A stretch of 64,000 bases of DNA from Persicimonas caeni (GTDB lineage: Bacteria; Myxococcota_A; Bradymonadia; Bradymonadales; Bradymonadaceae), in contig NZ_CP041186.1 of the NCBI RefSeq assembly GCF_006517175.1, positions 7,343,074-7,407,073 of the forward strand, written 5' to 3'. Shown piece by piece: positions 48,453-52,481 of the stretch (position 1 is its first letter; every line of letters starts with the position of its first letter). The notes beneath the pieces are model-generated. The model saw only the letters and a program-made list of their open reading frames with translations, made no database searches and was not told the DNA's origin. The position numbers and the translations under genes are program-made.

Positions 48453-50240
48453 ATGACCACTCTCATCCCCAATCTCGCGTCCGTGTTGGTGCTCGCGCAG
48501 GCCGAAGGCGGCCTCGACCCGGTCACGATCGGCCTGATCGCTCTGGCGGTCGTCGTGCTCATCATTCTGGTCTTCGCGGTCGTCCGATCGCTTAGCAAGC
48601 CGGAGAAGCCCGAGATCACCGAGCGCCGCCCGCCCACCGAAGAGGGCAAGGTGCCGACCAAAGATGTGCTCGAAGAGCGCATGGAGGTCGAAGAGCCCGT
48701 CGAGATCACCGACGACATGTCGCTCGCCGAGATCAAGCGCATCAAGGCCGCGCGCGTCAAAGGGAAGGGCAAGCGCCGCGAGACGGCCGCCGAGGCGACC
48801 GAACGCGCCAAGCGCGAGCGCGAAGAGGCCGAGCGCAAGGCCAAGGAAGCCGCCGAGAAGGCCGAGGCTGAAGAAGCCGAGGAGGCCCCGGAAGAGCCGG
48901 TCGAACAAGAAGAGCCGGTCAAAGAGCCTGTCGAAGAAGAAAAGCCGGCTGAAGAAGAGAAGCCGGTCGAAGAGGAAGAACCGGCCGAAGAAGAACCGGT
49001 CGAAGAAGAACCGGCCGAAGAAGAACCGACTGAACAAGAAGAGCCCGAGGTCGTCGAGGGACCCGACGTCTCCGAAGGCACCGAAGTCGCCGAAGGCCCG
49101 GAGGTCGGCGAGGGCGCCGACGTCACCGAGGGAGCCGAGGTCACCGAAGCTCCCGAGTCCGAGCGCAAGGTCAAGCGCAAGCTTCCGCGGCCCCTCCCCA
49201 AGCCCAAAAAGCGGCCCAAGCCGGAGCCCGAGGTCCGAGAAGAGCCCGAAGCTCCGGAAGAAGAACCGGAGCCGGTCGCCGACGAAGAACCCGAGCCGGC
49301 CGTGGAAGAAAAACCCGCGCCCGAGCCGGAGGCCTCCGAGCCGAAGACGCTCGCCCAGGGGCTCGAGAAGACCCGCTCGGGCTTCATCGACCGCCTGAGC
49401 AACCTCTTCAGCAGCGAGAAGCTCGACGAAGACATCGTCGACGACGTCGAAGAGATCTTGTTCACCGCCGACATCGGCCCGCACGTCGCCCAGGAGATCC
49501 TGATGGCGGTCGAAGAGGGCTTGAGCGGCGAAGAGAAGCGCGATCCGGGGCGTATCTGGGGCTTTATTCGCGACTACTGCGCCAAGCTCCTCAAAGCCCA
49601 CGAGGAGCCGCTCGACCTCGACAGCGCCAAACCCTACGTCATGCTCGTCGTGGGCGTGAACGGCGCGGGCAAGACCACCACCATCGGCAAGATGGCCAGC
49701 AAGTACCGTGACCAAGGCAAATCGGTCCTGCTCGTCGCCGGCGACACCTTCCGCGCCGGCGCCGTCGACCAGCTCGCCATCTGGGCCGAGCGCACCGACA
49801 TGCCCATCCACCAGGGCGAGCAGGACGCCGATCCCTCGGCGGTCATGTACGCCGGCATCGAGCGCGGCATCGAAGAGGACGTCGACGTCATCATCTGCGA
49901 CACCTCCGGCCGCCTGCAGACCAACGTCAACCTGATGGACGAGCTCGCCAAAATGGCGCGCGTCTCCGGCAAGGCGCTCGACGGCGCCCCCCACGAGACC
50001 ATGCTCGTGCTCGACGCCAACACCGGCCAGAACGCCATCATCCAGGCCAAGAAGTTCAACGAGGCCGTCGAGATCAGCGGCATCGCCCTGACCAAACTCG
50101 ACGGCACCGCCCGAGGCGGCGTCATCCTGGGCATCTGCGACGAGCTCGAAGCCCCCGTGCGCTATATTGGCATCGGCGAGAGCGTCGAGGACCTGCGCGA
50201 ATTTGACGCCGACGAGTTTGTCGAGGCGTTGTTTATGTAG
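48453..50240 (+). CDS. ftsY: Signal recognition particle receptor FtsY, membrane-anchored
   Basis: The protein has 595 residues from ATG 48453 with AGGA upstream. One helix (about 25-46) is followed by about 250 residues of Glu/Pro/Lys-rich sequence, then the NG GTPase domain (about 315-595). G motifs: VGVNGAGKTTTIGK (about 398), DTFRAGAVDQLA, ICDTSGRLQ, LTKLDGTARGG and GIGESVEDLREF at the end. It docks SRP-ribosome complexes to the Sec translocon. An N-terminal transmembrane helix differs from the E. coli amphipathic anchor. The gene follows smc by about 100 bases. Confidence 0.96.
   Translation: MTTLIPNLASVLVLAQAEGGLDPVTIGLIALAVVVLIILVFAVVRSLSKPEKPEITERRPPTEEGKVPTKDVLEERMEVEEPVEITDDMSLAEIKRIKAARVKGKGKRRETAAEATERAKREREEAERKAKEAAEKAEAEEAEEAPEEPVEQEEPVKEPVEEEKPAEEEKPVEEEEPAEEEPVEEEPAEEEPTEQEEPEVVEGPDVSEGTEVAEGPEVGEGADVTEGAEVTEAPESERKVKRKLPRPLPKPKKRPKPEPEVREEPEAPEEEPEPVADEEPEPAVEEKPAPEPEASEPKTLAQGLEKTRSGFIDRLSNLFSSEKLDEDIVDDVEEILFTADIGPHVAQEILMAVEEGLSGEEKRDPGRIWGFIRDYCAKLLKAHEEPLDLDSAKPYVMLVVGVNGAGKTTTIGKMASKYRDQGKSVLLVAGDTFRAGAVDQLAIWAERTDMPIHQGEQDADPSAVMYAGIERGIEEDVDVIICDTSGRLQTNVNLMDELAKMARVSGKALDGAPHETMLVLDANTGQNAIIQAKKFNEAVEISGIALTKLDGTARGGVILGICDELEAPVRYIGIGESVEDLREFDADEFVEALFM
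48897..49040 (+). repeat. In-frame 15/18-bp tandem repeat in ftsY
   Basis: The last four units (48981-49040) are 15 bases each, of the form CCGGCCGAAGAAGAA, encoding P-[AVT]-E-[EQ]-E. Upstream are degenerate 12-18-base units of the same kind. The repeat codes for the acidic linker and keeps frame, so copy-number change would alter only the linker length. Confidence 0.8.
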
Positions 50241-50307
50241 CGCCTCTGGCGGCCGTTTGGGGTCGCAAGACATCTCGAGGCTCGCAGAACAAAGGCGGCT
50301 TGTGATT

Positions 50308-50500
50308 CAACCCTTCGACGGGGGCAAAATCACAAGTCGCCTTTGTGTTTGGACCCTCTCGAGGGGGTCGAAAACCAAAGCCGCCTCATCACAGGACCCT
50401 CTCGAGGGGGACGAAGATCAAAGCCGCTTTGTGTTTCGGACCATCGGAGGGGGTCGAAACACGAGGCGAGCTTGTCCGCGGACCCTCAAGGGTGACACCA
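50308..50500. repeat. Tandem array of about 43-bp imperfect palindromic units
   Basis: Five units start near 50308, 50351, 50394, 50438 and 50480, giving steps of 43, 43, 44 and 42 bases. The shared core is GGACCCTCTCGAGGGGGTCG, itself palindromic, then AAA...CAAAGCCGC(T)TTGTG. CAAAGGCGGCTTGTGATT just before 50308 pairs with AATCACAAGTCGCCTTTG ending near 50346, so the units also pair between neighbours. The array lies after the ftsY stop and is non-coding. Confidence 0.85.
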
Positions 50501-50502
50501 CG

Positions 50503-50536
50503 AAAAAAGCCCCCGACCCAAAAGAGGGCCGGGGGC
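50503..50536 (-). terminator. Rho-independent terminator of the 50564-51349 gene
   Basis: GCCCCCGACCC (50509-50519) and 50526-50536 pair over 11 bp with one G-U. On the minus strand they are followed by the complement of AAAAAA (50503-50508). It lies 28 bases past the stop of the minus-strand gene and abuts the palindromic array. Confidence 0.88.
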
Positions 50537-50563: not shown

Positions 50564-51349
50564 TCACACGACCGGCTCGACGACGTCGTCGTCAACGGTG
50601 TCGTCAGCGACCGGCTCGCCGGTTTCGGGATCAATGTCCTCGACGGGGCGATTGCGCCGGTAGGCGTCTGCGACGATCTCGTTTTGGCGCTGGAACTCGG
50701 CCAGGAGCCTGTCGCGGGTCTCGGCGTCGGTCCCGTGGGCCGCGAGCGCCCGGAAGATCAGGTGGGCGAATTGCTCCAGCCCCTTCGCGCGAGCGTTTTT
50801 GACGTCGGCGTAGGACACCTGCTGGCGGGAGTCTTTTTCGAGTTCGGCGCGAAATTCGACCACCAAGTCGGCGAGCTTGTCTGCGTGACGGCGCACGCCG
50901 ATGGCGTCGACATGTGCGGCCAAGTCATTATCAAAGCGCTCGAGCAACACGTTCATGTTGGCCAACTGCTCCTCGAAGCTCTGCGTGACGAGTGCGAAGA
51001 GGCCTTCGGGAAAGGCCTCGACGAGGAACGTGCGGGCCTGGTCGGCCGTGACGTCTTCGCCGACGCTCTGGCCCTCGGCGACCGCGTGCATCCCCGAGAG
51101 GACACGGTCGATATCGGCGTCGACCTCCATGGCGCGTCCACGCGCATTGGAGGACTGGGACTTGGAGCGCTTGTAATTCTGCTCCACATTCAGCGTGTCG
51201 CCGTCGACGGCCAACGACGCGTCGCAATCAGCGACGAGTTCGGTGTCGCCCAACTCCTCGGCGACCTGTCGCATCGCCTGGGCGACGAACATGCGCCGGC
51301 CAGTCGGCAGCTGACGGCTTTTCAAAAAATCAAATAGCGGATGATTCAC
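50564..51349 (-). CDS. Cytosolic protein of unknown function
   Basis: The protein has 261 residues from a GTG with a strong GGAGGAG ribosome site. It has no signal peptide or membrane helix. It is largely alpha-helical and acidic; the region about 95-205 (ADQARTFLVEAFPEGLFAL, then LANMNVLLERFDNDLAAHVDAI) reads as long helices or a short coiled coil. The C-terminal 30 residues are Asp/Val-rich and disordered. I recognise no family. It is convergent with ftsY and ends in its own terminator, so it is a single-gene unit. Confidence 0.7.
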   Translation of the reverse strand: MNHPLFDFLKSRQLPTGRRMFVAQAMRQVAEELGDTELVADCDASLAVDGDTLNVEQNYKRSKSQSSNARGRAMEVDADIDRVLSGMHAVAEGQSVGEDVTADQARTFLVEAFPEGLFALVTQSFEEQLANMNVLLERFDNDLAAHVDAIGVRRHADKLADLVVEFRAELEKDSRQQVSYADVKNARAKGLEQFAHLIFRALAAHGTDAETRDRLLAEFQRQNEIVADAYRRNRPVEDIDPETGEPVADDTVDDDVVEPVV

Positions 51350-51755
51350 GTGACTCTCCTCCCACCGTAGGCGGGATCAAACAAAGGTGAACGGACGAAC
51401 AGATTCGCGGCGCCTGCCGCTGCCGCGTCGTGTCCCCAGCGCTACTTCGTTGTGGAGATAGGCCGCGATTCTAGCGTATGTTCGGTGAAAATCCAGCGCG
51501 AGTCGGCCTCGGGCGTCGAACGCCCGGATTTTTGCGCTGCAGGCCTTGCGCGAAGGTGGCTGTCGTGTTGCTCTGGCATCTGTGTGAGCCGCATGCGGCG
51601 CGGACGCGCCCTGTATTCTGCTGTGCACTACCTTGCCGATCAAAAAGGGGCTGTGCTATACCAATGGCAGAGGAATTGAGCATTGATTGAGTAGCCTCTG
51701 GCTGATGGAACGCAGCGCACGGCGCTGCCACTGATTCCTGTCGCACGGACAGCAA
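51350..51755. other. 406-bp intergenic region between divergent genes
   Basis: This contains the promoters of the minus-strand unknown gene and of the plus-strand barrel operon. Open frames here on both strands have no protein-like features. Apart from the candidate promoter at 51633-51662, nothing stands out. The bases near 51640-51680 are relatively AT-rich. Confidence 0.5.
51633..51662 (+). promoter_or_regulatory. Candidate sigma-70 promoter of the barrel/MoxR operon
   Basis: TTGCCG (51633-51638) and TATACC (51657-51662) are separated by 18 bases, and each matches 4/6. They lie about 95 bases before the first barrel gene. Confidence 0.35.
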
Positions 51756-52481
51756 ATGACACAGCTCAAATCGTCGCCCTCGCTTCTGGTCAGTCTCCTG
51801 ATCGGCCTGTTGGTGGTCATCGCCGCCCAACCGGCCCTCGCTCAAGAGACGACGCGCCAAGAGTTCGATGACACCATCCACGTCATCCAGCGCAAGCCGG
51901 TGTTGCAGAAGGGCCGCTTTGATCTCGTCCCGCGCTTTGGCGTATCGGTCAACGACTCGCTGTACCGCCACTACAAAGTTGGGGTGAATGGAAACTACCA
52001 CTTCAGCGAGAGCGTCTATCTGGGCGGTCTGTTCGAGTGGTACAACTTCGGCGACGCCCTCGGCGGGCCCACCGACGCCTTCAACGAGACGGCCAACGAG
52101 ACGCGCACCAACGCCGACGTGGCCGTACTTAACTGGGTCGGCGGCCTGGAGCTGGGCTACAAGCCCATCGTCGGCAAGTTCGCCTTGGCCGACTCGTTCA
52201 TCATCTTCTACGACGTCGGCCTGACCGCCGGCGGCGTGGGCATCGACGCCGAGAGTCTGGCGTTGTCGTCGGGCGACGTCACCTTCGGTGGCACGGTCAG
52301 CGCAGTCAGCCGCATCTTTTTGAACGATTGGATGGCCGTGAATCTCGAGGTTCGCGACGTCATCTACTCCGCCGACCTGCGCGGCGCGCCTGGCTCGTTG
52401 ACGAATATCGTGACGGTGGCTGGTGGCCTGAGCCTCTACCTGCCCACGACGTTCGAATACTCCGACCAAGTCGCCGAATAG
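51756..52481 (+). CDS. Outer-membrane beta-barrel protein (first of a pair)
   Basis: The protein has 241 residues with a signal peptide ending QPALAQ (about 30). The mature part alternates polar and hydrophobic residues in eight or so strands: KGRFDLVPRFGVSVNDS, VGVNGNYHFSESVYLGGLFEW, LELGYKPIVGKFAL, IIFYDVGLTAGGVGID and LTNIVTVAGGLSLYLP. This resembles the small outer-membrane barrel family found in myxobacteria. It shares the VP..G...ND and PIVGKF..... motifs with the next gene product, so the two are paralogues. A pore or structural function is inferred. Confidence 0.82.
   Translation: MTQLKSSPSLLVSLLIGLLVVIAAQPALAQETTRQEFDDTIHVIQRKPVLQKGRFDLVPRFGVSVNDSLYRHYKVGVNGNYHFSESVYLGGLFEWYNFGDALGGPTDAFNETANETRTNADVAVLNWVGGLELGYKPIVGKFALADSFIIFYDVGLTAGGVGIDAESLALSSGDVTFGGTVSAVSRIFLNDWMAVNLEVRDVIYSADLRGAPGSLTNIVTVAGGLSLYLPTTFEYSDQVAE

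Follow-up and report, generated by a model that had tools for sequence, protein, structure and literature searches.

Phased arrays of palindromic repeats accompany DUF6261-like genes in Persicimonas caeni and in other genomes

In ParB-parS systems, iterons and operator arrays, proteins bind sites that are palindromic or repeated and spaced in phase with the helix. CRISPR arrays consist of short palindromic repeats at regular steps, and in type III toxin-antitoxin systems RNA repeats lie upstream of a ToxN-like toxin with a terminator between the two. REP palindromes, which form intergenic clusters (BIMEs) and are associated with RAYT (TnpA_REP) transposases, bear a GTAG (or CGTC) tetranucleotide at one end (PMC3733652). 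In TIGR-Tas systems, the arrays adjoin a gene, their repeats are locus-specific, and some of the arrays are palindromic (PMC12045711).

The array that we followed up lies in a 64,000-nucleotide stretch of the Persicimonas caeni genome (hereafter, the window; contig NZ_CP041186.1, positions 7,343,074 to 7,407,073), between ftsY and a convergent DUF6261-like gene. The nearest known system in architecture is TIGR-Tas, as in both cases one protein is encoded beside a long array of short locus-specific repeats. However, the units here are 42-44 bp long, column profiles show one or two cores per unit, and the spacers, which are conserved in young arrays, drift by point mutation; neither dual 9-nt guides nor the TIGR-Tas alternation of two repeats of 8-12 nt with hypervariable spacers of 9 nt is seen. 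None of the 45 family members examined matched a Nop domain in Pfam, nor did a Nop structure appear in the rows of the fold search, though a remote relation could escape both. The likeness to CRISPR extends to spacers that have diverged in old arrays (for example L203), but the repeats here are 14-16 bp, and the spacers of young arrays are near-identical, with no guide-like turnover. The window units are repeats throughout, in agreement with the original prediction that CRISPR-type spacer diversity is absent, and no cas gene was recognised by reading the ORFs around the array, where the flanking genes are smc, ftsY and the DUF6261-like gene. In contrast to type III toxin-antitoxin systems, the array is downstream of its gene, and Pfam matched the protein, predicted to be all-helical, to nothing of the ToxN type. 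ParB-parS, iteron and operator arrays share the phased, palindromic or repeated character of the sites, but here the sites are locus-specific and located 3' of a gene, and no ParB, Rep or HTH domain was recognised. When tried as explanations, the REP/RAYT, CRISPR, type III toxin-antitoxin and PADLOC models each failed their defining tests.

The window array (array A) had been described as five tandem palindromic units, and this description is accurate: the units follow each other at 43-bp steps over positions 50308-50494. TRF reports a match at 50310-50459 with period 43 and score 142, a repeat finder and the autocorrelation at lag 43 agree, and a covariance model of the unit places copies of the first palindrome (P1) at 50308-50327 (CAACCCTTCGACGGGGGCAA), 50351-50370 (GGACCCTCTCGAGGGGGTCG), 50394-50413 (GGACCCTCTCGAGGGGGACG) and 50437-50456 (CGGACCATCGGAGGGGGTCG), at exactly 43-bp spacing. 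The fifth copy at 50480-50494 (GGACCCTCAAGGGTG) is degenerate and was recognised by sequence. Matching 6-mers at lag 43 occur in this region 87 times as often as expected from composition, and the palindromy of the unit exceeds that of shuffles (p 0.007). It had also been noticed that the neighbouring arms around CTTTG...CAAAG can pair, and there is indeed a second palindrome (P2, CAAAG..CTTTG; ACAAAGGCGGCTTGT, ACAAGTCGCCTTTGT, CAAAGCCGCTTTG), interleaved with P1 at about 21 bp centre to centre, so that each unit holds two alternating palindromes. The P2 copies lie at 50289-50303 (ACAAAGGCGGCTTGT, associated with the inverted repeat 50277-50307/50328-50358), 50331-50347 (CACAAGTCGCCTTTGTG), 50375-50390 (CAAAGCCGCCTCATC, degenerate), 50418-50433 (TCAAAGCCGCTTTGTG) and 50461-50476 (CGAGGCGAGCTTGTC, degenerate). 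Since the first of them lies just to the left of 50308, where the array had been taken to begin, we extend array A to about 50286-50494.

Array A belongs to the convergent gene at 50564-51349 (minus strand), not to ftsY. This gene encodes a protein of 261 aa from a GTG start, and the convergent terminator noted earlier is present as a GC-rich hairpin followed by a T-run at 50509-50536 on the minus strand, between the gene and the array, and is the intrinsic terminator of this gene. On its 5' side is a leader with a predicted -10 box (51350-51473, minus strand; TAGAAT at 51468-51473), the promoter being assigned by analogy with duplicated modules described below. The proposed association with smc-ftsY does not hold, because the relatives whose ftsY was found have no array 3' of it, and arrays elsewhere follow DUF6261-like genes. 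In the relatives whose orientation allowed a reading by eye, a barrel-protein gene homologous to window ORF 51756-52481 mostly comes immediately after ftsY; the closest relative (FtsY 81% identical) has another convergent gene there. Array A and gene 50564-51349 are therefore an addition of this lineage. Separately, we observed that the N-terminal part of FtsY contains a long acidic, internally repetitive stretch (window 48891-49321), and similar stretches occur beside the FtsY of relatives.

The window protein has 12 paralogues in this genome, most of the paralogues being 20-35% identical to each other. Pfam family DUF6261 (PF19775) is matched by 7 of 11 aligned paralogues (best E 1.5e-10) and by 31 of 45 aligned members of the wider family, and, like DUF6261, the family is multi-copy in genomes. 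The window protein alone has no PF19775 match and joins the family only through the paralogue alignment at 20-31% identity, and many DUF6261 members elsewhere have no array. Its AlphaFold2 model is all-helical (pLDDT 86); the family proteins are acidic, with a pI of about 5, and no DNA-binding domain was recognised in them. Fold searches against the PDB returned generic helical bundles only, which are little informative for such folds, and a PDB sequence search with a deeper family profile gave no match. Neither NCBIfam nor PHROGs matched the family, the PADLOC defence models matched none of 11 members at E 0.01 or better, and plasmid and phage collections held no homologue of the window protein. 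DUF6261 is found in 21 of the 57 genomes of the class, in up to 52 copies per genome, and across the phylum 34 of 379 genomes have window-type members. The 52 copies are in a 4.2-Mb genome (G052; L283-L295, L362, L363), where nearly all of the copies that were read lack arrays, the exceptions being two window-type copies. The literature that we searched reports no function or repeat association for DUF6261 and no such arrays, and we found the pairing of a DUF6261 gene with a phased array described nowhere.

We detected arrays independently of their sequence as the dominant lag of matching 6-mers, in the range 25-70, within 600 nt after the stop codon. This lag is 41-44 nt 3' of 11 of the 13 paralogues in this genome (Fisher, 2e-13) and of 22 of 24 copies from other genomes (Fisher, 6e-25), the latter comprising 23 of the same family and one from G031, most of which were not used in forming the idea; both p values are optimistic, since the lag threshold (19-fold) was chosen after the data had been seen and some copies are orthologues or duplicates. 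By comparison, among the remaining ORFs of this genome 8 of 286 are followed by a lag of 41-44 nt (3 of 56 where the intergenic region is long), and it occurs on the 5' side of 1 of 25 of the same DUF6261-like genes. Our genome-wide statements draw on sequence searches and 400 kb of control sequence. Arrays follow 3 of 3 copies in a genome of another class (G077) and both window-type copies of G052, and G025 has one clear and one weak case, while other lineages are patchy, with arrays at 2 of 15 copies in f14, 1 of 7 in f5 and 4 of 26 in f3. A loose DNA match to the unit led to a further genome of the same class (G031), which holds six arrays of 42-bp units with GACCCCTCNNGAGGGGTC and a different second palindrome. 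Four of the six follow copies of a single gene on the 3' side, with 5' truncation in some copies, and hhalign relates the intact product to the window protein (probability 94.7, E 6e-8). At two contigs of G031 (C487 and C588; L134, L198), 5'-truncated or frameshifted DUF6261-like copies retain the array, like L207 in P. caeni. We thus have little doubt that a module of a DUF6261-like gene with a 3' array exists.

The period of the arrays is constant and their sequence locus-specific. At the paralogues, the steps are 41-44 bp and the cores differ greatly, as in ACGACCGCGGTCGT (13 copies, steps 42-43), ACCATCGCGATGGT (11 copies, steps 41-42), AGGACCCnGGGTCCT (11 copies, steps 42-43 with one double step), GGGCTCGCGAGCCC and others. 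Units at many loci are palindromic; clear palindromy is absent from L205, L266, L274, L366 and L369. A half-site GACC..GGTC, which we considered as common to all arrays, turned out to be typical of this genome only and not of other genomes. The terminator near the stop codon recurs at 19 of 37 loci, nearly always before the array, versus 2 of 80 random stretches. Gene and array duplicate as one piece: in the pairs L203/L204 (95% identical) and L202/L207 (99%), homology starts at the -35 region, covers leader and gene, and stops where the array ends; the gene of L207, in this genome, is truncated on its 5' side, but the array is retained. We also observed 82% identity over 212 nt between the leaders of L202 and L205, in a region some 210 nt upstream of the start codons, with proteins only 33% identical; modules have perhaps exchanged a structured leader RNA.

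The differences between L203 and L204 amount to 1 of 140 positions in the cores (0.7%), 6 of 867 in the CDS, 2 of 244 in the leader and 25 of 358 in the spacers (7%), and cores and spacers differ in divergence with p 0.003 in this test of one duplicate pair. In L203, an old array with a constant step, likeness is 85% among the 13 cores and 34% among the spacers, against 29% at random. From this comparison, the cores and the spacer length look to be under selection, and the spacer sequence does not. Between the halves of the palindromes, we counted 46 one-sided changes and one compensatory change, with pairing at the level of shuffled halves; such independent variation is unlike that of an RNA stem and like that of two half-sites. 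In the orthologous arrays L268 and L273, gTTC..gAAc has become gCTC..gAGc in nearly every unit with the flanking spacer still recognisable, as expected for a changed preference of a reader. The motif GYTCNNGARC occurs in all six tails of the subfamily L210-L212, L267, L268 and L273, whose proteins span three genera. The motif has a mean of 2.5 in these tails; the corresponding means are 0.03 for the 33 other tails and 0.1 for the controls. A general coevolution of protein and array is weak at less than 60% protein identity (Mantel test of array words against protein similarity, r 0.08, p 0.05).

The sole other site of the window unit in the 8.05-Mb genome is array B (C1:4722406-4722589; L087 8407-8590), 74% identical to array A over the whole array. 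Between the two arrays, the P1 cores are 69% conserved and the rest likewise 69%, so that the cores show no extra conservation. Array B lies in a divergent intergenic region about 280 bp upstream of a gene resembling RAYT (NCBIfam NF047646 at E 4e-19, which falls short of the cut-off of that model), for which reason a REP system was first considered; within the 18 kb read around it, no DUF6261-like gene or remnant was found. An unrelated repeat of about 130-166 bp (GCTGCGGCCGGGAGACCGCAGGGCGGGCC..., partly tandem; L087 8651-10434) flanks the RAYT gene on both sides and is possibly its cognate repeat. This genome has an unusual load of IS200/RAYT-type transposases, with 26 ORFs matching Y1_Tnp (PF01797; L061-L086), and none of these 26 loci from the Pfam search carries the unit.

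The position of array B and the Y1_Tnp-like ORFs would fit a REP/BIME cluster mobilised by a RAYT transposase, as the original prediction of a REP-like cluster had it, but we consider this most improbable. Only two arrays of the unit sequence exist in 8 Mb, at odds with the high copy number of dispersed single or paired REP units, and the units stand head to tail in phased tandem. GTAG is absent from array A, and its two GACG are not at a regular end of the unit; besides, the RAYT gene at array B is flanked by a different repeat, and the arrays follow DUF6261 genes, a non-transposase family, rather than RAYTs. A local neutral tandem duplication, or a terminator or stability element of ftsY, is nearly as improbable. 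In its favour, this genome alone has the unit sequence at this place, and relatives do not conserve it at ftsY. However, the same architecture and period recur at paralogues and in other genomes with other sequences, which is not what neutral duplication would give, and the cores are conserved while the spacers drift. A role in mRNA stability, also proposed before, is unlikely, as the convergent gene is terminated before the array is reached and the arms lack covariation in the arrays tested.

More serious, though still unlikely, is the possibility that the repeats are transcribed from a promoter of their own and that the DUF6261 protein binds or processes the repeat RNA, in the manner of type III toxin-antitoxin or TIGR systems. 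The tandem units beside one gene, the hairpin-capable, locus-specific palindromes, the helical acidic protein with no recognised DNA-binding domain and the comparable placement and locus specificity of TIGR-Tas arrays (PMC12045711) speak for it, but the halves of the palindromes do not covary, several palindromes reach the centre with no loop, a terminator often separates gene and array, and Rfam matches neither arrays nor leaders. Moreover, spacers that drift fast by point mutation, and units that are near-identical in young arrays, are unlike guides. Unlikely as well is a selfish module of gene and array that mainly moves or duplicates itself, its array serving as a recombination or transposition end and not as a platform for binding. 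This would account for whole-module duplicates with sharp ends, 5'-truncated copies that keep their array in P. caeni (L207) and G031, the lineage-specific presence between ftsY and the barrel gene, the orphan array B, and up to 52 DUF6261 copies per genome. On the other hand, no transposase or terminal repeats were recognised, the low identity of most paralogues indicates that duplication is rare, and after duplication the cores are as conserved as the CDS.

The best explanation overall, which we hold tentatively at somewhat under even chances, is a phased array of DNA sites read by a locus-specific factor. The general idea of a protein-binding array in the original prediction thus remains the best one, and its tie to smc-ftsY fails. 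In the module, of which array A forms the 3' end, a promoter, a leader of about 120-240 nt, a DUF6261-like gene and often a terminator precede the array of 42-44-bp units. The cores are probably selected as short DNA motifs at fixed spacing, and so as sites at the DNA level rather than RNA stems. Four turns of B-DNA correspond to 42 bp. Each array would then line up dyad-symmetric sites on one helix face for a factor matched to the locus. The simplest candidate is a dimer of the DUF6261 protein encoded next to it, and the bound factor would build a local nucleoprotein complex. That the neighbouring protein is the reader of its array is suggested by linkage and joint duplication only, and we put it forward as a possibility. 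It is weakened by the acidic nature of the protein, which has no known DNA-binding domain, by the non-palindromic arrays, by the equal conservation of cores and remainder between arrays A and B, and by the weak correlation of arrays and proteins; the many DUF6261 copies with no array in f3, f5 and f14 weaken the explanation as a whole. The sites are unlikely to be operators of their own gene, since they are downstream of it and a check of six genes showed no array core in the promoter regions, cores also being rare elsewhere; this makes autorepression through them unlikely.

An uncharacterised family with up to dozens of copies per genome thus accompanies a phased repeat array in one lineage. 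The DUF6261 proteins of this clade may be factors that each bind the array of their own locus, a large family not described so far, in which protein and sites change together and the pair duplicates. If so, one genome would hold at least a dozen orthogonal pairs of protein and DNA (or of protein and RNA). Should every protein read the array beside it, nature would have supplied many diversified, mutually orthogonal pairings of protein and nucleic acid, and the arrays would provide a first handle on the function of DUF6261.
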